The translations under genes were made by a program, and so were the position numbers. From NCBI RefSeq assembly GCF_003575965.1, contig NZ_QWJJ01000009.1, positions 124,001 to 188,000 on the forward strand: a stretch of 64,000 nucleotides of DNA. The letters are read 5' to 3'. This DNA is from Pseudooceanicola sediminis (GTDB taxonomy: Bacteria > Pseudomonadota > Alphaproteobacteria > Rhodobacterales > Rhodobacteraceae). The stretch's first letter is position 1; every line of letters begins with the position of its first letter. Below, in pieces: positions 28,348 to 58,669 of this stretch. The notes beneath the pieces were generated by a model. The model did not search any database. It had not been told where the DNA came from and worked only from the letters and a program-made list of their open reading frames with translations.

Positions 28348-29532
28348 TCAGGCCTTGTGCTTACGCGCACTTTCGGGGCCGTTGGGGTGCTTTGCATGGG
28401 GATAGACCGGATGGGCGTGGTCGTGGTCATGATCATGCGCGTGGGCGTGCCCGTGGCCATGACTATGCCCGTGACTGTGCCCATGTTCATCGCCATGGTC
28501 ATGCCCGTGTGCATGGTCATGGGTACCATGGACATGATCGTGATGATGATGCGCGTGGCCGTGATCGTGGTCATGCACGGCCTCCAGACGGCATTCGCCG
28601 GTGCAGAACGTCGCGCAAAGCTGGCAATCCTCGACATTCGAACCAGGGGCATTCGCGCCCTGCCCTTCGACATGGTGATGGTGGCTTTCCTGCACTGCAC
28701 CGACCTCGGCCTCGAACCCCAGCACCTGAACGCGGTACTTGCAGGTGGCGCAGTTCGGCGGCGGGATTTCCCCGATCTGTTCAGTGACCCGTTCGGCAAA
28801 GGTGGCCAGCACCTCGTCATGATCGTTCAGATACCCCGCCTTGACGAACTGGATGTCGGGATGGTGCGCCGCAACCTGATCGGTAAAGCCGTAGATGCGG
28901 TCGATCAGGATGCCGGTGAACAGGAAATACGGGAACACCAGGATGCGTTTGTATCCCAGGCGCGTGGCGTGGGTCAGGCAGGGTTCGACCAGCGGAAAGG
29001 TCACACCGGAATAGCCGACCTCCATCCAGCCAAAGCCCAGCCCCTCCTGCAGCATCCGCGCGATCTTGGACACGTTGCCGTTGGCGTCCGGGTCCGACGC
29101 CCCGCGGCCGATGACGACAAGGCAGGTCTCCTCGTAGGGCACCGTCCCGTGTTCGGCATCCGCCGTGGCCATGGCATCGCGCACCCGCGCCCCGGCGGCG
29201 GCGATCATCTTGGGGTCGACCCCCAGTTCGCGACCATAGGAAATCTCGATCCCGTGTTTCGCCGCGTAGGTGTTGAGAACCGTGGGAATGTCGTTCTTGG
29301 CGTGCATCGCCGCGAACAGCATGCCCGGCACCGCCAGGATCCGCTCGCATCCCGCATGACGCAGACGGTCCAGGCCGTCGCGGATCACCGGATTGGCAAA
29401 CTCCAGATAGCCGTAATCGACCATCCAGTCAGATGGCAGCAGGGCGGGCAGCTTTTGCGCAAGCACCGCGAATTCGTCAACAGCCGCCTGGCTGCGAGAG
29501 CCATGGCCGCAGATCATCACACCGGTTTTCAT
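28348..29532 (-). CDS. cbiX: CbiX-type sirohydrochlorin cobaltochelatase with Cys cluster and His-rich tail
   Basis: A 394-aa two-repeat chelatase. The N-terminal catalytic half has metal ligands H10 (CGHGSRS) and H77 (FAAMHAKND). The second half (from about residue 132) is a degenerate copy, as in long CbiX. Cysteines cluster at C261, C264, C303, C306, C310 and C314, similar to the Fe-S-binding ending of Bacillus megaterium CbiX. Residues 320-375 are a His/Asp-rich tail with more than 20 histidines, likely a cobalt store or sensor. CbiX inserts cobalt into sirohydrochlorin, the early-insertion route. It is preceded by a small membrane gene 5 bases upstream. Confidence 0.93.
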   Translation of the reverse strand: MKTGVMICGHGSRSQAAVDEFAVLAQKLPALLPSDWMVDYGYLEFANPVIRDGLDRLRHAGCERILAVPGMLFAAMHAKNDIPTVLNTYAAKHGIEISYGRELGVDPKMIAAAGARVRDAMATADAEHGTVPYEETCLVVIGRGASDPDANGNVSKIARMLQEGLGFGWMEVGYSGVTFPLVEPCLTHATRLGYKRILVFPYFLFTGILIDRIYGFTDQVAAHHPDIQFVKAGYLNDHDEVLATFAERVTEQIGEIPPPNCATCKYRVQVLGFEAEVGAVQESHHHHVEGQGANAPGSNVEDCQLCATFCTGECRLEAVHDHDHGHAHHHHDHVHGTHDHAHGHDHGDEHGHSHGHSHGHGHAHAHDHDHDHAHPVYPHAKHPNGPESARKHKA

Positions 29533-31249: not shown

Positions 31250-31732
31250 CTAACAGCGCTGGCCGGGGTGGCCGCCCAGATGTTCCACCATCGCGGCAAG
31301 GTCGGATGGCGGCGCGCCGGAATTCATCATGGCGCAGGCATTTGTGGCGTGCTGGAAAATGGACCCGTCGGAAAAGAAACAGGTGTTGGTGACAAAGATC
31401 ACCTTTGCATCCGGCTGGCGATAGTTGGCGAAATCGGCGATGGCCAGGGCCGATCCATGTGTCAGCACCAGATCCAGCACGATCACCTGGAAATCGTCCG
31501 TGCGCAGACACTCGATCGCGGCATCCTGCCCATGCACCAGGCTGGTATGGCATCCCTGCCGATCAAGATGGCGTTTCCACACCCATCCCAACCGTGGTTC
31601 GCTCTCCACAACCAGAACGCGCGTGCGACCATCGCCGCCCAGCAGATCGCCCTCCAGCGAAACGGTCCCGGTTCTGTCCTTGATATCACCCAATGCACCA
31701 CCCTTCCAAAATGATCCTGTCGGGACACGCAC
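31250..31732 (-). CDS. Stand-alone response-regulator receiver protein with altered active site
   Basis: A 160-aa single-domain protein from GTG 31732. The receiver fold begins at RVLVVESEP (about residue 38) and includes phospho-acceptor D87 in VLDLVL and T115. The usual acidic pair is replaced by E43/E45, and no lysine is present where the conserved K-P pair should be (about residue 137). The domain may therefore signal without normal phosphorylation. There is no output domain. A TTG at 31693 behind GGAAGG may be the true start. It is divergent from the DUF1636 gene. Partner unknown. Confidence 0.72.
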   Translation of the reverse strand: MRVPTGSFWKGGALGDIKDRTGTVSLEGDLLGGDGRTRVLVVESEPRLGWVWKRHLDRQGCHTSLVHGQDAAIECLRTDDFQVIVLDLVLTHGSALAIADFANYRQPDAKVIFVTNTCFFSDGSIFQHATNACAMMNSGAPPSDLAAMVEHLGGHPGQRC

Positions 31733-31739
31733 ATATTTG

Positions 31740-31944
31740 ATTAGTGTTTCTTAACATGACTATCAGACTCAATTGATAACAAATCCTTAACAAAGGATTG
31801 CCACACCCGTCGCGAGGTTAACGAATTGCAATTTTCCGCCGATTGCGGTGAAAGCGGCGACAGCGTCGCGTTCGCAGGTCGTTTCGGCCCGACACGCGCA
31901 CAGCGACCGACGCAGACACTGGCACGCAAGGGCACGGACACACG
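31740..31944. promoter_or_regulatory. Divergent AT-rich promoter region with an 18-base palindrome
   Basis: An AT-rich stretch unusual for this window lies between the receiver gene and the DUF1636 gene. It contains the perfect inverted repeat AATCCTT-AACA-AAGGATT at 31782-31799, either an operator or a short hairpin. Confidence 0.5.
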
Positions 31945-32319
31945 ATGACAACCTGGATCACGATCTGCGACACCTGCAAACACGAAGGCTGGGATGCCGC
32001 CACCGCCGAACGGACGGATGGCGAAGCGCTGGCAGCGCGGATCGAACCGCTGGCCGCGGCCCGGGGTATCGCGACACGCCGCGTCTCCTGCCTGATGGGC
32101 TGCACGCATGGGTGCAACGTCGCGATCCAGGCGGCGGGAAAGCTCTGCTATACCCTGGGCCGGTTTCAGGGCGACGAGGACGATGCCGCCGCGATTGCCG
32201 ATTATGCCGCCCTGCACCGCGACAGCCCCAATGGCCAGGTGCCCTATCGCCAGTGGCCGCAGGGGGTAAAGGGGCATTTCATCACCCGTCATCCGCCCCT
32301 GCCAGACAGCACCGAATGA
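31945..32319 (+). CDS. DUF1636 protein, predicted metal/Fe-S binding
   Basis: A 124-aa protein with cysteines at 8 and 11 (CDTC) and at 49, 53 and 57 (CLMGCTHGC), the pattern of the DUF1636 family, which resembles thioredoxin-like [2Fe-2S] ferredoxins. Members often lie in cobalamin and cobalt-transport clusters, as here directly before cobC and cobD. A redox or metal-delivery role in B12 synthesis is inferred. No ribosome site is obvious, but the first residues match the family. Confidence 0.8.
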   Translation: MTTWITICDTCKHEGWDAATAERTDGEALAARIEPLAAARGIATRRVSCLMGCTHGCNVAIQAAGKLCYTLGRFQGDEDDAAAIADYAALHRDSPNGQVPYRQWPQGVKGHFITRHPPLPDSTE

Positions 32320-32350
32320 TCAGCCCCCTCGATATGCCTGCCCCCATCGG

Positions 32351-32511
32351 CAGAACCGGCCTGCGCGACAGAACTGGCCCGTCCATATGACTGGCCCTCT
32401 CGACAAGACTGGCCCTGCTGACAAGACTGGCCCTGCTGACAAGACTGGCCCTGCTGACAAGACTGGCCCTCTCGACAAGACTGGCCCTCTCGATCCAACC
32501 GCCCTGCGCGA
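32351..32511. repeat. 18-bp tandem repeat that runs into the cobC coding sequence
   Basis: Nine units: three exact CAAGACTGGCCCTGCTGA (32404-32457), two CAAGACTGGCCCTCTCGA (32458-32493), and degenerate units before (32351, 32369, 32387) and after (32494). The 18-bp length keeps the reading frame, adding six residues per unit to the protein. Confidence 0.92.
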
Positions 32512-33436
32512 TCACGGCGGCAATCTGGACGCCGCGATCCGCACCTTTGGCGGCACCCACGGCGACTGGGTGGACCTGTCGACCGGCATCAATCCCGTGC
32601 CCTACCCGTTGCCCGACCTGCCAAACCACGCCTGGACGCGCCTGCCTGACCAGGGCGCCGTCGATGCGCTCTGCGACGCGGCCCGCGCCTTCTGGGGCGT
32701 GCCGCCGCAACGGGCGATCCTGGCCGTGCCCGGCGCGTCCTCTGCCATCGCCCATGTCCCGGCACTGGCGGCGCCGGGCCGCGTCCATATCCCCGGCCCG
32801 ACCTACAACGAACACGCAGCCGCCTTTGCGCGCCTCGGATGGCAGGTCGACACCGACGCCGCCCCCGGCCAGGCGGCCCGCGTGCTGGTCCATCCCAACA
32901 ATCCCACCGGCGCGTTTCACGACGCGCCCGCCACGGCCCCCCTCACCGTGATCGACGAAAGCTTTTGCGACATCGCCCCGGCGCGGTCGCATGTGACCAC
33001 GGCGTGCGACGACACGTTGATCCTGAAAAGCTTCGGCAAGTTCTGGGGTCTGGCCGGTCTGCGCCTCGGCGTGGTCATCGGAACGCCGGATCGCATCGGC
33101 GCGCTGTCGGACATGCTCGGCCCCTGGCCGGTCTCAGGCCCCGCGCTGCACGTCGGCACGCAGGCCCTGCGCGATACGCCCTGGGCGGACGCGACCCGCG
33201 CGCGCCTCACGGCCGATGCCGCGCGGCTCGACACGCTGATGACGGGCGCCGGGGCCACCCTGGCCGGCGGCACGCCCCTGTTCCGCCTCTATGCGGTTCC
33301 CGACGCCGCCGCCGTGCAAACCCGCCTTGCCCGGCACCATGTCTGGAGCCGCATCTTTCCCTATTCTCCGCACTGGATCCGCCTCGGCCTGCCCGCCCCG
33401 GATCACTGGGACCGCGTCGCGGGGGCCTTGGCATGA
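32387..33436 (+). CDS. cobC: Threonine-phosphate decarboxylase / CobC-type aminotransferase fold, with repetitive N-terminus
   Basis: A 349-aa PLP enzyme of the CobC/CobD class that makes the aminopropanol-phosphate arm of cobalamin. Key residues are Y140, N171 in NNPTG, D190 and the PLP lysine K218 in SFGK. Residues 5-34 are the peptide repeat (A/L)DKTGP, encoded by the tandem DNA array; conserved sequence begins near residue 42 (DHGGNL). No in-frame ATG, GTG or TTG lies between the repeat and the conserved part, so the repeat is probably translated, unless a CTG is used. No good ribosome site precedes ATG 32387. It overlaps cobD by ATGA. Confidence 0.88.
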
Positions 33437-34341
33437 GCCACGCGGCCATTCTCACCCTCGCCCTGCTGCTCGATGCGCTGCTGGGCGAACCCCGCTGGAT
33501 CTGGTCGCGCCTGCCCCACCCCGCCGTGCTGATGGGCAGGCTGATCGGCTGGGCCGACCGGCAAATGAACCACGGCACGCAGCGTCGCCTGCGCGGCCTT
33601 GCCCTGACCGCCCTGCTGGTGGTGATCGGCTGGTTCCTCGGCACGGCAATCGCCGCCCTCGGCTGGCTGCCGCAACTGCTGGTCGCCGCCATCCTGCTGG
33701 CCCAGCGCAGCCTGGTCCAGCACGTCGCCGCCGTCGCCCGCGCCCTGCGCATCTCGCTGCCCGAAGGGCGGCGCAGCGTCGCCATGATCGTGGGGCGCGA
33801 CACCGCCGGGATGGATGGCCCCGCCGTCGCCCGCGCCGCCATTGAAAGCGCCGCCGAAAACGCCTCCGATGGCGTGATCGCACCCGCGTTCTGGTTCCTC
33901 GTTGCGGGCCTTCCCGGCCTGCTGATCTACAAGCTGATCAATACCGCCGATTCCATGATCGGCTATCGCACGCCCCGATACGAACGCTTCGGCTGGGCCG
34001 CGGCGCGCACCGATGATCTGCTCAACCTGATCCCGGCGCGCCTGTCTGCGCTTGCCCTGGCTGCGCTGTCCGGGCACCTGGGTCAATGGCGTGCCATCGT
34101 GGCCGAGGCGAACCGCCACCGCTCGCCCAATGCCGGCTGGCCAGAGGCGGCGATGGCCCGTGCCCTCGATGTCGCCCTCTCCGGCCCGCGCGCCTACGAC
34201 GGACAGATGCGCGATTATCCCTTCGTCCACCCGACAGGTCGTCGCCATGCCGGCGCCGCCGACATCGAAGCGGCCTGTACCCGCCTCTGGCAGCTATGGG
34301 CCTGCCTGCTGGGCGTTTGCCTGCTGATCTGGGTCCTTTGA
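33433..34341 (+). CDS. cobD: Adenosylcobinamide-phosphate synthase (CobD/CbiB)
   Basis: A 302-aa membrane protein with about five hydrophobic segments. It carries CbiB motifs near the start ([25 protein letters not shown]), [46 protein letters not shown] and DGQMRDYP. It attaches (R)-1-amino-2-propanol-phosphate to adenosylcobyric acid. It starts inside the stop of cobC (ATGA), and product and next-step enzyme are coupled. Confidence 0.94.
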
Positions 34342-39257: not shown

Positions 39258-39490
39258 TGCCTGTGCCTTTCGGGGCGAAGGGGTGATTCCGGGTGTTGCC
39301 AAAAGACTGCGGGCCATGGGCATCGCTGTCAACGATAACGCCGCAGGATATGGGACGCGTTCTGAGGTTTTCCACAAGATATTGCGACGTCAGTGGCGGA
39401 TTCAGGCCACTGCCGGGCGAAATTCGCCGGAACGACGGGTGCAATCGCGCTTGACGGCACCGGCACATCCACGGCACTCATGGGGCTGTA

Positions 39491-39679
39491 CGGTTCCCCC
39501 GCACCGGCGCAAAGCGCCAAGGGGGTGAAACGGGAATGCGGAAACGGGTGACCCACACAGGGGCCCTGAAGCCGCAGCCGCCCCCGCGACTGTGACGCGG
39601 CAAGCAGCGCCTGAGATGCCACTGGGAGAGCCCGGGAAGGTCAGGACTGCGCCAGAGCCGCCAGCCAGGAGACCGGCCG
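39491..39679 (+). promoter_or_regulatory. Cobalamin riboswitch upstream of the cobalt/cobalamin operon
   Basis: The classic AdoCbl-riboswitch order is visible: a GGGAATGCGG / GGGTGACCC region near 39532-39553, CCCCCGCGACTGTGACGCGG at 39581-39600, GCCACTGGGAGA...CCGGGAAGG at 39618-39640, and the B12 box AGCCAGGAGACCGGCC at 39663-39678. A GGCCGTC/GACGGCC hairpin (39701-39720) touches the ribosome site AAGGAGA at 39721. It can be masked or freed depending on ligand binding, which suggests translational control. It should turn the operon off when B12 is plentiful. Confidence 0.93.
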
Positions 39680-39733
39680 TGCAGGAACGTAACCCCATCG
39701 GGCCGTCGGGTGTGACGGCCAAGGAGACCTGAA

Positions 39734-40495: not shown

Positions 40496-41563
40496 ATGCC
40501 CGCTAAAATCCCAGCAACCGTCATCACCGGCTTCCTCGGTGCCGGCAAGACCACCCTGATCCGCCACATGCTGACCCACGCCCAAGGCAAGCGGATCGCC
40601 CTGATCATCAACGAATTCGGCGATCTCGGCGTCGACGGCGATATCCTCAAGGGCTGCGGCGACAGCGCCTGCCGGGACGAGGATATCATGGAGCTGTCGA
40701 ACGGCTGCATATGCTGCACCGTCGCCGAAGACTTCATCCCGACGATGGAAGCCCTGCTGGCCCGCCCCGACAAACCCGATCACATCGTCATCGAAACCTC
40801 CGGCCTCGCCCTGCCGCAGCCGCTGATCCGCGCCTTCAACTGGCCCGCGATCTCTACACAGGTCACCGTCGATGGCGTCGTCACCGTGGTCGATGGCCAC
40901 GCCGTGGCAGAAGGACGCTTTGCCCATGACGAGGCCGCCGTCTCCGCCGCACGCGCGGCCGACGACAGCATCGACCATGAAACGCCACTGTCGGACCTTT
41001 TCGAAGACCAGCTCGCCTGCGCCGACATGATCGTCGTCAACAAGGCCGACCTGCTGTCCTCGACCGAGCTCGCCCTGACGATGGACGCCCTGAAAACCGG
41101 CGCGCGCCCCTCGGTCCAGCTGGTCTCCTCTGCCATGGGCGTGCTGCCCGTCGACGTCCTGCTCGGCATGGGGATCGGCGCCGAGACAGATATGGAAGCG
41201 CGCCATGAGGTGCACCATCACCACCACCATGACGACGATGACCACGAAGACGAACAGGATGATCACCACCACCACGACCATGATGAATTCGAGAGCTTCG
41301 TGGTGACCCTTCCCGAGATAACCGACCCAAAAGCCTTTTCGGCCAAGGTTTCCGCCATCATCGCCGCACACGACATCCTGCGCCTCAAGGGCTTCGCCGC
41401 GGTCACCGGCAAACCCATGCGCCTGACGATCCAGGCCGTCGGCCCCCGCATCGACAGCTACTTCGACCAGCCCTTCGGCACAGGCGCGCGCGAAACCCGC
41501 CTTGTCGTCATCGGTCAGACCGGCCTCGACCGTGCCGCGATCGAAAGCGCACTGGCCGCATGA
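40496..41563 (+). CDS. cobW: CobW GTPase, cobalt chaperone for cobalamin synthesis
   Basis: A 355-aa G3E-family GTPase. The P-loop is GFLGAGKTT (residues 12-20), the metal site CxCC is C71/C73/C74 in GCICC, and NKAD (182-185) is the guanine motif. A His/Asp-rich insert spans residues 237-263, and the C-terminal CobW_C domain follows. CobW is thought to deliver Co(II) to the CobNST chelatase; GTP sets metal affinity. cobN follows with one GNAT gene between. It overlaps that GNAT gene by ATGA. Confidence 0.95.
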   Translation: MPAKIPATVITGFLGAGKTTLIRHMLTHAQGKRIALIINEFGDLGVDGDILKGCGDSACRDEDIMELSNGCICCTVAEDFIPTMEALLARPDKPDHIVIETSGLALPQPLIRAFNWPAISTQVTVDGVVTVVDGHAVAEGRFAHDEAAVSAARAADDSIDHETPLSDLFEDQLACADMIVVNKADLLSSTELALTMDALKTGARPSVQLVSSAMGVLPVDVLLGMGIGAETDMEARHEVHHHHHHDDDDHEDEQDDHHHHDHDEFESFVVTLPEITDPKAFSAKVSAIIAAHDILRLKGFAAVTGKPMRLTIQAVGPRIDSYFDQPFGTGARETRLVVIGQTGLDRAAIESALAA

Positions 41564-42117: not shown

Positions 42118-45100
42118 ATGCACCTTCTCGCCGCCACCCCCGGACGCATCGATGACGGCGTCGAACCCGTGGACCTCGGCCAGACCCCGGCCGATGTCGT
42201 GCTGATATCCGCCGCCGATACCGAACTTGCCGCCCTGTCGCAGGCACGGGCCGCCATGCCCGGCGCCCCCTCGCTGCGCCTCGCGCAACTCTCCAACCTG
42301 ACACACCCGATGTCGGTCGACCTGCACCTTGACGATTGCGCCACGAAATCCCGCCTCGTCATTGCCCGCGTCCTCGGCGGCACCGGGTACTGGCGTTACG
42401 GCATCGAACAGTTCTCGGCCCGCCTGCACGCCGCCGGTGTCCCCTTCCTCGCCCTGCCCGGCGATGACAAACCCGACCCCGAACTTCGTGCCTTCTCCAC
42501 CCTGCCCGACGCCGATTACGACGCCCTCTGGGCCTACCTTGTCGAGGGCGGCCCGGCCAACGCCACTGGCTTCCTGCACTATTGCCGGGCCCTGCTCGAT
42601 GATACCGAAAAACCCCACCCTGCCGCGCCGTTGCTGCGCGCCGGTCTCTACTGGCCCGGCACCTCGAAACCCACGCTGGACACCCTTCAGACCCACTGGA
42701 CCAAGGACGCGGCCACAGTCCCCATCGTCTTCTACCGCGCGCTGGTGCAGGGTGCCGGACTTGCCCCCATCGACGGCCTGATCCGCGCGCTTCAGGCCGA
42801 AGGCCTCAACCCGCTCCCCGTCTTCGTCGCCTCGCTGAAAGATCCGGTCTCGGCCGCCACCCTCGATCACCTGTTCGCCCAGACCCACCCCGAGGCGATC
42901 CTGAACTGCACCGCCTTCGCCACCGGCTCTCCGCACGGCGAGACAGGCGACCACAACCCCTTCGCCGCCGCCTCGGCCAACAACGCACCGGTGTTCCAGG
43001 TCGTCCTCGCCGCTTCGTCCGAGGCCGCGTGGGTCGACGGCCTTTCCGGTCTCTCGGCCCGCGACATCGCAATGAACGTCGCCCTGCCGGAAATCGATGG
43101 CCGCATCCTGTCCCGTGCGATCAGCTTCAAGGGTCAAAGCCACTTCGACGCCGCCACAGAATGCCCCATTGCGGTCTACCAGGCCCGTCCCGACCGCATC
43201 GCCTTCACCGCAAGACTTGCCGCCAACTGGATCCGCCTGCGCCGTGCCCCCGCCCCCGATCGCCGCGTTGCCCTGATCCTGGCCAACTACCCCAACAAGG
43301 ACGGTCGCCTCGCCAATGGCGTTGGCCTCGACACGCCCGCCGCCACCGTCCACGCACTCAACCTGCTGGCGCGCAACAGCTACAGCGTCGAAAACATCCC
43401 CACCGACAGCGACACGCTGATGCAGGCGATCCTCGCTGGCCCCACCAACTGGCTGACCGACCGCGCCGCGACCACCGGCGGCGTCACCCTCGCCCTCGCC
43501 ACCTACCTGCACCACTTCAATGCCTTGCCCGGCGACATCCGCCAAAAGATCACCGATCGCTGGGGCTCCCCTGAGGACGATCCCTTTTTCCTGCGCGAAA
43601 TACACACCCCGAACGGTTCCGCGACCACCAGCGCCCCCGCAGGCTTCAAGCTCTCCGTCCTGCAACATGGCAACGTGGTCATCGGCATCCAGCCCGCGCG
43701 CGGCTACAACATCGACCCGACCGAGACCTACCACGCGCCCGACCTCGCCCCACCGCACAACTACCTCGCCTTCTACATCTGGCTGCGCGCCGAGTTCGGC
43801 GCCCACGCGCTGGTGCACATGGGCAAGCACGGCAACCTCGAATGGCTGCCCGGCAAGGCCGTGGCCCTGTCCGAATCCTGCTTCCCCGAGGCCGTGTTTG
43901 GCCCGATGCCCCATATCTACCCCTTCATCGTCAACGACCCGGGCGAGGGCACGCAGGCCAAGCGCCGCACGCAGGCCGTCATCGTCGACCACCTGACCCC
44001 GCCCCTGACCCGCGCCGAAAGCTACGGCCCCCTGCGTGACCTCGAAGCGCTGGTCGATGAATACTACGAGGCCGCAGGCGTCGATCCACGCCGCATCGCG
44101 CACCTGTCCCGAGAGATCCTGTCACTGACCTCGGTCACCGGCGTCGACAAGGATGCAGGCTTCACCGGCGACGCCGACGGCGACCTCGCCAAGCTCGACG
44201 CCTGGCTGTGCGAGCTGAAAGAGGCGCAGATCCGCGACGGCCTGCACGTCTTTGGCCAGTCGCCCGAGGGGAGGCTGGCCCGCGACCTGCTTCTCGCCCT
44301 CACCCGCATCCCGCGCGGCGCGGGCAAGGGCAAGGACGCCTCGCTGCCCCGGGCCCTCGCCGCCGATTTCGCCATGGCCTTCGACCCGCTGGATTGCGAC
44401 ATGGCCGCCCCGTGGGCAGGTCCCCGCCCCGAAGCACTGGCCCAGCTCGACACCGACCGCTGGCGCAGCAACGGCGATACCGTCGAACGGCTGGAACTGT
44501 TTGCCGCCGCCCTGCTCGACGGTAGGGCACAGGCCCCCGGCGACGCCTCGCGCGCGGTGCTGGACGAGATCACCCAGACCATCGCCCCCATGCTTTCTGC
44601 CTGCGGCCCCGACGAAGGGGCGGGCCTCCTCACCGCCCTTGCAGGGCACTTCCTTGCCCCGGCGCCCTCCGGCGCGCCCACCCGCGGCCGTCTCGACACG
44701 CTGCCGACGGGGCGCAATTTCTACTCGGTCGACAGCCGCGCCGTGCCGACCCCCACGGCATGGGCCCTTGGATGGAAATCGGCAAACCTGCTGATCGAGC
44801 GTCACTTGCAGGATCAGGGCGACTGGCCCCGCACGCTGCTGCTGACCGCCTGGGGCACGGCCAACATGCGCACCGGGGGCGACGACATCGCCCAGGCCCT
44901 CGCCCTGATGGGGGTCAAGCCGCAATGGGACGCTGCAAACCGGCGCGTCACCGGCTTTGAAATCCTGCCCCTGACCACCCTGGACCGTCCCCGCGTCGAC
45001 GTCACCCTGCGCATCTCGGGCTTTTTCCGCGACGCGTTCCCGCAACTGATCGCCCTGGTCGACAGCGCCGCCCGCGCGGTTCAGGCGCTGGATGAACCCG

Positions 45101-45837
45101 ACGACATGAACCCCGCTGCCGCGCGTGCCCGCGCAGGCCAAGCGCAATCGCGCGTTTACGGATCAAAACCCGGCGCTTACGGCGCGGGCCTGCAAGCGAT
45201 GATCGACGAACGCCTCTGGAATGACCGGTCAGATCTTGCCGAAGCCTATCTGGAATGGGGCAGCTACTCCTACGGCGCCAGCGACGAGGGCACCCGCGAC
45301 GCAGCCGGCCTGCGCGCCCGCCTGACCCAGACCGATGGCATCGTGCAAAACCAGGACAACCGCGAACACGACCTGCTGGACAGCGATGATTACTACCAGT
45401 TCGAAGGCGGCGCGGCTGCCGCCGTCGCCGCGCTGCGCGGCGCGGATGTCCCTCTCTATCACAACGACCACTCGCGCCCCGAACGCCCCGTGATCCGCAC
45501 GCTGGACGAGGAACTCTCCCGTGTCATCCGCTCCCGTGTGGTCAATCCCAAGTGGATCGACGGCATCAAGCGCCACGGCTACAAGGGCGCCTTCGAAATA
45601 GCGGCCACCGTCGATTACCTCTTCGCCTTTGCTGCCACGACCAATGCCGTCAAGAACCACCACTTCGATCTGCTCGAAGCCGCGTTTCTGGAGGACGACG
45701 CGACACGCCAGTTCATCGCCGACCACAATGCCCCCGCCCTGGCGGAAATCGCCCAGCGTCTGCAGGAGGCGATCGAGCGCGGCCTCTGGACGCCCCGCTC
45801 GAACTCCGCGCGTGCCCGGATCGAGGCGCTGATCTGA
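42118..45837 (+). CDS. cobN: Cobaltochelatase subunit CobN
   Basis: A 1239-aa magnesium-chelatase-H-like protein, the tetrapyrrole-binding subunit of the late, ATP-dependent cobaltochelatase CobNST. Family stretches seen are NYPNKDGRLANGVGLDTPA, HMGKHGNLEWLPGKA, VNDPGEGTQAKRR, LLTAWGTANMRTGGDD and VYGSKPGAYGAGLQ. It inserts cobalt into hydrogenobyrinic acid a,c-diamide. The partner subunits CobS and CobT are not in the window. The ATG at 42118 lies 81 bases after the GNAT stop; the ribosome site GAGGTCCC is moderate. Confidence 0.96.
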   Translation: MHLLAATPGRIDDGVEPVDLGQTPADVVLISAADTELAALSQARAAMPGAPSLRLAQLSNLTHPMSVDLHLDDCATKSRLVIARVLGGTGYWRYGIEQFSARLHAAGVPFLALPGDDKPDPELRAFSTLPDADYDALWAYLVEGGPANATGFLHYCRALLDDTEKPHPAAPLLRAGLYWPGTSKPTLDTLQTHWTKDAATVPIVFYRALVQGAGLAPIDGLIRALQAEGLNPLPVFVASLKDPVSAATLDHLFAQTHPEAILNCTAFATGSPHGETGDHNPFAAASANNAPVFQVVLAASSEAAWVDGLSGLSARDIAMNVALPEIDGRILSRAISFKGQSHFDAATECPIAVYQARPDRIAFTARLAANWIRLRRAPAPDRRVALILANYPNKDGRLANGVGLDTPAATVHALNLLARNSYSVENIPTDSDTLMQAILAGPTNWLTDRAATTGGVTLALATYLHHFNALPGDIRQKITDRWGSPEDDPFFLREIHTPNGSATTSAPAGFKLSVLQHGNVVIGIQPARGYNIDPTETYHAPDLAPPHNYLAFYIWLRAEFGAHALVHMGKHGNLEWLPGKAVALSESCFPEAVFGPMPHIYPFIVNDPGEGTQAKRRTQAVIVDHLTPPLTRAESYGPLRDLEALVDEYYEAAGVDPRRIAHLSREILSLTSVTGVDKDAGFTGDADGDLAKLDAWLCELKEAQIRDGLHVFGQSPEGRLARDLLLALTRIPRGAGKGKDASLPRALAADFAMAFDPLDCDMAAPWAGPRPEALAQLDTDRWRSNGDTVERLELFAAALLDGRAQAPGDASRAVLDEITQTIAPMLSACGPDEGAGLLTALAGHFLAPAPSGAPTRGRLDTLPTGRNFYSVDSRAVPTPTAWALGWKSANLLIERHLQDQGDWPRTLLLTAWGTANMRTGGDDIAQALALMGVKPQWDAANRRVTGFEILPLTTLDRPRVDVTLRISGFFRDAFPQLIALVDSAARAVQALDEPDDMNPAAARARAGQAQSRVYGSKPGAYGAGLQAMIDERLWNDRSDLAEAYLEWGSYSYGASDEGTRDAAGLRARLTQTDGIVQNQDNREHDLLDSDDYYQFEGGAAAAVAALRGADVPLYHNDHSRPERPVIRTLDEELSRVIRSRVVNPKWIDGIKRHGYKGAFEIAATVDYLFAFAATTNAVKNHHFDLLEAAFLEDDATRQFIADHNAPALAEIAQRLQEAIERGLWTPRSNSARARIEALI

Positions 45838-53359: not shown

Positions 53360-53723
53360 GGTGAACGGCTCCGCACCGGGCCGTTGGCCAGGTGCGCTCT
53401 GACCCGAAGTGCCCGGCCTTGCCGCCGGGCCACGCGGTCACCTCATGCCCCGGCCCACCCGTGCCCCAGGTTCAGCGCCCTCGCGTGCGCGCAACCTGAC
53501 AAACTTGACTTTACCCACCCAGCCACCTAAACGCTGCGCACCTATCCCGGAATCTGTGATGATTCCGGTCCCATCGCTTTTGCGGGGATCGCCACCAGTC
53601 AGCGCGTTGCGCCCACTGGTGCCGTTGGCCTTTGCGCCGGTCCCGCCAAAGCTTGAGGTTTGAGCCGCCCCCACCCAAATGGGGGTCAATGCAACAGTCA
53701 GGTGGCCTGAGGAGGGCCGGGGC
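53360..53723 (+). promoter_or_regulatory. ffh promoter and structured leader
   Basis: A -35-like TTGACT (53505-53510) and a weak -10-like TAAACG (53528-53533) with a 17-base spacer suggest a start near 53540, giving a ~185-nt leader. The leader holds three clean hairpins: CCGGAATC/GATTCCGG (53547-53568, 8 bp), CACCAGT/ACTGGTG (53593-53621) enclosing GCGC/GCGC, and CCCCCA/TGGGGG (53668-53685). It is not the 4.5S SRP RNA: the conserved GGAAGC/AGCAG tip is absent. Confidence 0.45.
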
Positions 53724-57411: not shown

Positions 57412-57786
57412 ATGGCCATGAAAATTCGTCTCGCCCGCGGCGGCTCGAAAAAACGCCCCTTCTACCGGATCGTCGCAACGGATTCCCGTATGCCCCGTGA
57501 TGGCCGCTTCATCGAAAAACTGGGCACCTACAACCCGCTGCTGGCAAAAGACAGCGAAGAGCGGATCAAGATGGACGTCGAACGCGTGCAATACTGGCTG
57601 GCCCAAGGCGCCCAGCCGACCGACCGCGTTGCCCGCTTCCTCGAAGCTGCCGGCCTGACCGAGAAGAAAAACCGCAGCAACCCGAAAAAAGGCACCCCCG
57701 GCAAAGCCGCAGCCGAGCGCGCTGAATCCAAGGCCGCCAAGGCTGCCGAAGCCTCCGCCGCGACCGAAGAAGCTGCCGCAGAATAA
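57412..57786 (+). CDS. rpsP: 30S ribosomal protein S16
   Basis: A 124-aa S16 protein. The conserved start [20 protein letters not shown] is followed by GTYNPL and [14 protein letters not shown]. The last ~40 residues are an Ala/Lys/Glu-rich tail beyond the E. coli length (82 aa), a common alphaproteobacterial extension. AAAGGAGATACCCCC gives a strong ribosome site. It heads the rpsP-rimM-trmD-rplS set. Confidence 0.97.
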
Positions 57787-57860: not shown

Positions 57861-58001
57861 ATGCCCTTTCTGTTTCGTCCCGTCCGTCTGGTCCTGCTGC
57901 TTGGCGCCGCTTTCGTGGCCGGCATGTTGTACGAACACGACCGACAGGCGCAAAACTGTCTGGAAAAGGCGGACCTTCTGGCAGATGTTATCTGTCACTA
58001 G
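57861..58001 (+). CDS. 46-aa small membrane protein between rpsP and rimM
   Basis: A short reading frame with a hydrophobic helix (residues about 8-22, VRLVLLLGAAFVAGMLY), an EHDRQAQNC stretch and a C-terminal ADVICH; two cysteines. Amino-acid composition is protein-like rather than random, and it fits tightly in the operon. The ribosome site is weak, so it is called with moderate confidence. Its stop codon touches a 17-bp tandem repeat. Confidence 0.5.
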   Translation: MPFLFRPVRLVLLLGAAFVAGMLYEHDRQAQNCLEKADLLADVICH

Positions 58002-58002
58002 G

Positions 58003-58053
58003 CTGGATCTGACGCTAGACCGGATCTGACACTGGGCCGGATCTGACACTGGG
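58003..58053. repeat. 17-bp tandem repeat (CCGGATCTGACACTGGG units)
   Basis: Three units at 58003, 58020 and 58037; the second and third are identical and the first differs at five positions. The array lies between the small membrane gene and rimM. Confidence 0.88.
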
Positions 58054-58147
58054 CGACGCCAATCGCCCGCCAGCGTCGGCACGCGCCGGCCAGCCCGCCC
58101 TGACCCGCAGGGGCCCGGCGGGACCACGAACACGGAAAGGCGCCAAG

Positions 58148-58669
58148 GTGAGCGACACGACCCGCGAAAACGAACTCGTCTGCGTCGGTGCAATTGCCGG
58201 GGCCTTTGGCGTGCGCGGAGAGGTGCGGCTGAAAAGCTTTTGCGCCGATCCGGCCGCGATCATCGACTATGCCCCCCTCAGCACCGAAGACGGCAGCCGC
58301 ACCTTCTCGGTTGACCTGACCCGCAGCATCACCAACGGTTTCGCGGCCATCCTCTCCGGGGTCGACACCAAGGAACAGGCTGATGCGCTCAAGGGTCTGC
58401 GCCTCTATGCCCCGCGCGACCGCCTCCCGGCGCTGCCGGAGGACGAATATTATCATGCCGACCTGATTGGTCTGCTGGTGGTGGATACCGGCGGCACCGA
58501 ACTGGGGCGCGTCAAGGCCGTGATGGATCACGGCGCGGGCGACCTGCTGGAAATCACCGGCGCTGGCATCACCGGTTCCATCCTGTTGCCTTTCACGATG
58601 GACGCCGTCCCGACGGTCGATATCGAGGCCGGCCGCATCGTCGCCGACCCGCCCGAAGGTCTGTTCTGA
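58148..58669 (+). CDS. rimM: Ribosome maturation factor RimM
   Basis: A 173-aa protein: N-terminal RimM domain ([19 protein letters not shown]) and a PRC-barrel C-terminal half ([41 protein letters not shown]). It binds S19 and assists 30S head assembly. It lies in the usual position after rpsP and ends one base before the next start. Confidence 0.95.

Follow-up and report, generated by a model that had tools for sequence, protein, structure and literature searches.

The only ordinary start codon of cobC in Pseudooceanicola sediminis lies in an 18-bp tandem repeat and overlaps the stop of a short leader frame

In P. sediminis, the predicted N-terminus of CobC and the only ordinary start codon of its gene (ATG, 32387) are provided by an 18-bp tandem repeat, and this ATG overlaps the stop of a 24-codon reading frame that itself begins in an overlap with the stop of the preceding gene. 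Positions are those of the window, i.e. the whole 64-kb stretch of DNA that was analysed. According to the account that we favour, and to which we assign a probability of roughly two in three, the repeat grew in frame within cobC, the loss of 1 bp split the frame, an AAG to ATG change in one unit supplied both a stop and a start, and CobC would now be produced by coupled reinitiation with a disordered tail at its N-terminus.

The repeat and the reading frames that cross it

The array was detected by TRF at 32389-32488 (period 18, 5.6 copies, 95% matches) with a score of 168, the highest in the window, where the runner-up scores 88; the best score among 60 dinucleotide-preserving shuffles of the window was 66. 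Elsewhere on this contig (137,624 bases outside the window), no score exceeds 140, that of a 21/42-bp tandem repeat (L123:6754-6889). Five exact units on the forward strand (32402-32491; starts at 32402, 32420, 32438, 32456 and 32474), three of them of the form GACAAGACTGGCCCTGCT and two of the form GACAAGACTGGCCCTCTC, are read in the cobC frame as DKTGPA or DKTGPL. They are preceded by the degenerate unit CATATGACTGGCCCTCTC (32384-32401, +), in which the AAG of the other units is replaced by the present ATG start, and, further upstream, by three degenerate units of 18, 18 and 17 bp (32331-32383, +; starts at 32331, 32349 and 32367), the last of which (32367-32383, +) shifts the frame. The three in-phase 18-mers from 32331, each compared with whichever of the two unit forms it resembles more, show 18 mismatches in sum, a value matched by none of the 63,721 other window positions, for which the minimum is 22. 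At the downstream edge, the stretch GATCCAACCGCCCTGCGC (32492-32509, +; DPTALR) bears a weak likeness to the unit, which it fits poorly (9 mismatches), and it shares 15 of 20 bases with 32349-32368, as do equally well five window positions when this one is included; the possibility that it is an eroded unit is, from its sequence, only suggestive. The array is present at one place only in its own genome: a mobile or dispersed repeat was rejected, since the second genome match overlaps the array and the units upstream of it. A 17-bp tandem repeat (ATCTGACACTAGGCCGG, 3.8 copies) was also found at 57990-58054, between the ORFs at 57412-57786 and 58148-58669 and, unlike the cobC array, outside both of them.

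The gene directly upstream of cobC encodes a DUF1636 protein (31945-32319, +; Pfam PF07845, E 8.3e-28), and its stop forms a first ATGA (32316-32319, +) with what appears to be the ancestral cobC start, P. spongiae having a matching overlap. From this ATG a leader frame runs for 24 codons to a TGA at 32388-32390 (32316-32390, +), which forms the second ATGA (32387-32390, +) with the start of cobC; no other ATGA is present within 32302-32520. As translated from the repeat, cobC (32387-33436, +) encodes 349 residues, with the conserved part (RDHGG) from 32507, and is joined by an ATGA at 33433-33436 to cobD/cbiB (33433-34341, +; Pfam PF03186, E 2.3e-93). P. spongiae shares the cobC/cobD overlap, and pairing to the anti-Shine-Dalgarno (anti-SD) is strong ahead of the cobD start (−8.6 kcal/mol).

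No stop codon interrupts the cobC frame from 32387 across the whole array and through the conserved core. Counted from the stop upstream to the enzyme, this frame contains a single ATG, GTG or TTG, 40 codons ahead of the R in RDHGG. The leader units, read as GRTGLR and DRTGPS, share their codon phase with the array as read in cobC, the continuity being interrupted by the 17-bp unit. When A was substituted for T at 32388 in silico, the leader frame lost its stop across the 80 codons read and the cobC frame lost its only ATG/GTG/TTG, so that a single substitution accounts for both stop and start. Since a change of AAG ACT to ATG ACT always generates ATGA, the overlap alone is not an independent sign of selection, and the matching leader frame is the only one. 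The first-pass annotation had recognized the in-frame units encoding (A/L)DKTGP, the degenerate units 5' of the ATG, the absence of an ordinary start between array and enzyme and the fact that gain or loss of whole 18-bp units would preserve the frame, all of which are borne out by these data, and had overlooked the second short reading frame (32316-32390) with its ATGA overlap at each end.

The enzyme, its relatives and the former start

The predicted fold of CobC matches that of CobC in 9jfb (E 5.5e-31; TM-score by query, 0.80). With TIGR01140, the curated CobD/CobC model for L-threonine-O-3-phosphate decarboxylase, the protein scores 282.8 bits against a cut-off of 290.55, as do, also below it, the three relatives scanned (279.3, 280.1 and 287.7). 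The core is full-length and maintains the invariant columns of 30 aligned sequences. These include D42, H43, G44 and G45, so that the extension directly precedes the conserved HGG arm, which is found at residues 43-45 here as opposed to residue 7-8 of the chain in solved relatives. The pLDDT value is below 50 at residues 1-4 and 7-41, and at least 90 for 279 of the 349 residues. Low values are expected where no relative aligns, and the N-terminal extension of approximately 40 residues is, from the model, probably disordered. By comparison with P. spongiae, the cobC core yields dN 0.154 and dS 0.668 (dN/dS, 0.23) and is conserved at the sequence level; for the DUF1636 gene the values are 0.085 and 0.677 (0.13), and the higher ratio of cobC may reflect some relaxation.

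P. spongiae is the closest relative found, with a CobC 75% identical over residues 25-349. Its cobC starts in the equivalent ATGA overlap, only 4 codons before RDHGG, to give a protein beginning with MSDQRDHGG. The comparison was extended to 101 distinct loci, the window included, as obtained from 110 by leaving out one cut at a contig end (L027) and 8 duplicates. The nearest in-frame start is 1-14 codons before RDHGG in the other 100 and 40 codons before it in the window, and none of the 100 has a similar N-terminus. By taking into account only the 35 loci with a DUF1636 match in the fetched flank (thus excluding 66 of the 101), the distance from the DUF1636 stop to RDHGG was found to be 2-26 nt in 34 loci and 187 nt in the window. 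In all these 34 relatives a possible cobC start is found between −11 and +6 nt relative to the stop of DUF1636, so that almost no intergenic region existed at the outset; a 4-nt overlap is possible in 19 of the 34, a count to be read knowing that, among several possible starts, the one nearest to −4 was chosen, a rule that favours the 4-nt class. In the window itself, the ATG at 32316, in 4-nt overlap with DUF1636, is kept 5' of the whole repeat. The earlier proposal that an intergenic minisatellite had captured the start of the gene should therefore give way to in-frame growth, a frame split and a new start within the repeat: as far as the sequences indicate, the repeat would lie inside the former coding frame and the start would have moved from 32316 to 32387.

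Two adjacent exact units are absent from all 22 other genomes of the genus searched, and the array DNA has no match in 294 other genomes of the family, which are an even draw from a larger group and include about two of the genus, the comparison set having one genome per species. Other tandem arrays at the site (TRF score of at least 45 within 250 bp before RDHGG) are limited to one of the 100 distinct related loci, L007, where a weak 15-bp repeat (2.3 copies, score 49) is found at the equivalent place.

Proposed origin and translation of the split N-terminus

In the proposed series of events, a coding minisatellite would have grown among the first codons of cobC, 3' of the ancestral ATG at 32316, the outer upstream units having decayed with age and the inner ones being fresh copies. 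The loss of one base in one unit would have thrown the old start out of the enzyme frame; in the next unit AAG would have become ATG and, as ACT follows, the resulting ATGA would both terminate the leader and offer a new start in frame with cobC. We infer this order of deletion and substitution, as well as a seed native to cobC, the origin of which is not proven because the downstream edge at 32492-32509 is only weakly akin to the unit. The codons of the array are rare in this host (ACT, 2.6%, GCT, 3.3%, and CCT, 7% of their synonymous sets), with a CAI-like value of 0.29 compared with 0.76 for the cobC core, the reference being 38 ORFs picked by length and GC3. Such values fit recent copying of a seed unshaped by codon selection, and they equally fit an untranslated stretch.

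With respect to translation, ribosomes that end DUF1636 at the first ATGA would reinitiate on the 24-codon leader and, after terminating at the second ATGA, initiate once more on cobC. From the arrangement of the frames, CobC is thus probably made by termination-reinitiation from the leader, and would carry its tail of approximately 40, probably disordered, residues ahead of the conserved HGG arm. In E. coli, Huber et al. reported that a distance of 38 nt decreased reinitiation by 80-90% in two gene pairs and abolished it in a third (PMC10666635). The DUF1636 stop and the ATG at 32387 are separated by 67 nt, which makes direct coupling between DUF1636 and cobC unlikely, so that coupling would need a leader ending on the start codon. 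The calculated anti-SD pairing is weak before both 32387 (−1.5 kcal/mol) and 32316 (+0.4 kcal/mol), the median over the 101 loci, window included, being −5.0 kcal/mol and the P. spongiae value −3.2 kcal/mol. The weak pairing before 32387 would speak for coupling over de novo initiation, and it is also compatible with low output, i.e. plain poor expression. A Shine-Dalgarno sequence (SD) ahead of the downstream start, which is common but not universal in ATGA pairs, is found before neither 32387 nor 32316, and removal of the SD decreased reinitiation in four of five E. coli gene pairs (PMC6728339). In the experiments described in PMC10666635, 15 nt of the upstream gene sufficed, but they were fused behind a long reporter, so that the sufficiency of a 24-codon cistron is not established by them.

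Synthesis of CobC by −1 frameshifting from leader to cobC on the RNA was set aside because no slippery run was seen, by eye, at ATA TGA. No RNA structure beyond chance was detected in 32280-32530 (z −0.37), no promoter or terminator was found in 31600-32600, and no riboswitch is present at cobC, the only cobalamin riboswitch of the window being at 39474-39695.

The alternative that survives best, and which we consider unlikely, is that the leader is irrelevant and that ribosomes initiate independently at 32387. An ATG in an open frame could in principle serve as a de novo start, but the weakness of the anti-SD pairing and the ATGA junctions that flank the gene at either end argue against it. 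Less likely again is an error of sequencing or assembly. A single base missing from the assembly, somewhere in 32367-32386, would mimic the frame split; cobC would then start at 32316 as in P. spongiae, and its product would carry an unbroken extension of approximately 63 residues formed by degenerate and fresh units. The codon phase common to leader and array and the intact ancestral start are as such an error would leave them, but there is no homopolymer run at the spot, which coincides with the unit bearing precisely the ATG that would rescue a true frame break.

The array would be placed outside the enzyme if CobC started at the in-frame CTG immediately ahead of RDHGG (32504-32506, +; M-RDHGG), leaving the repeat untranslated or merely grazed by the leader. 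Two related loci (L028 and L029) start as MRDHGG at the equivalent point, so that an enzyme of this length works, and the unusual codons of the array, which would suit an untranslated stretch, are the reason why this explanation was retained. However, CTG starts are rare, the anti-SD pairing before 32504 is +0.3 kcal/mol, neither the leader frame nor that of DUF1636 has a stop nearby, the entire array is free of stops in the cobC frame, and odd codons are expected of any freshly copied unit; by taking these points together, we regard a start at the CTG as improbable. As improbable, in our opinion, is that this lineage is beginning to lose cobC, with the repeat and the frame split as the first step and little enzyme being made: initiation signals are weak, codons are rare, and the gene can be lost or replaced, as CobC is matched strongly in 19 of the 22 other genomes of the genus and weakly only in three (G005, G008 and G019), but the core is full-length with its invariant columns kept, dN is far below dS, and cobW, cobN and cobD are intact in the vicinity, as is a cobalamin riboswitch.

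Within the favoured account of in-frame growth and a new start, a more general possibility may be raised, although we would bet against it. Each unit would carry its own rescue, in that a change of AAG to ATG creates an enzyme-frame start together with an overlapping stop in the frame left by an upstream 1-bp loss, thus converting a broken N-terminus into a coupled leader cistron. A break of the frame within the array would then not necessarily inactivate the gene, and the start might shift from unit to unit, altering both the amount of CobC and the length of its N-terminus.

Relation to known systems and to neighbouring loci

Tandem units within a coding frame are a feature shared with the intragenic minisatellites of bacteria surveyed in Legionella pneumophila (PMC2639597), and, according to a review (PMC3899988), the N-terminus is a favoured site of coding repeats, especially among pathogenic bacteria. 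The cobC array differs from these in that the host gene encodes an enzyme of cofactor synthesis, the start codon itself is part of the repeat, and a break of the frame is spanned by a stop/start overlap. The three junctions DUF1636/leader, leader/cobC and cobC/cobD are all ATGA, as in the gene pairs used to study termination-reinitiation (PMC6728339, PMC10666635); the middle one is peculiar because it lies within a repeat and joins parts of what was probably one N-terminus rather than two genes. As in the phase-variable modA, a repeat is found near the start along with two possible starts, but in modA the units are of 4 bp and switch the frame (PMC3899988). The 18-bp units of cobC leave it unchanged, for which reason an on/off phase switch was rejected and is not to be expected.

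In the bicistronic design (BCD) leaders of synthetic biology, the leader stop overlaps the gene start. The cobC region resembles them in its short leader cistron followed by the gene (PMC5995908), and differs in that its leader occurs naturally, derives from a repeat, is in turn joined to a preceding gene and lacks a strong SD. Thus, coding repeats and ATGA coupling are each known, and what is new is their combination at the start of a B12 gene; no comparable case was recognized in the literature, as covered by open-licence papers.

The locus offers a readable case in which a start codon would have been moved inside a gene with the stop/start coupling of the operon kept, the putative steps (repeat growth, one-base loss and a start that doubles as a stop) being still visible in one short stretch. 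It is also a warning for annotation, as the program-called start at 32387 is real in form and apparently not ancestral, and the 24-codon leader would escape notice. Should strains prove to differ in unit number, they would provide a natural series for the effects of N-terminal length and leader coupling on the enzyme.

Other features of the window were noted. After the cobalamin riboswitch (39474-39695, +; RF00174, 90.7 bits) come cobW (40496-41563), which contains a stretch rich in His and Asp, and cobN (42118-45837). A CbiX-type protein whose long C-terminal part is His-rich is encoded at 28348-29532 (−), and 30-bp tandem repeats (28412-28482) are found within its DNA. Finally, a match to the ffh sRNA family (RF01793, 61.9 bits) is present at 53578-53629 (+).
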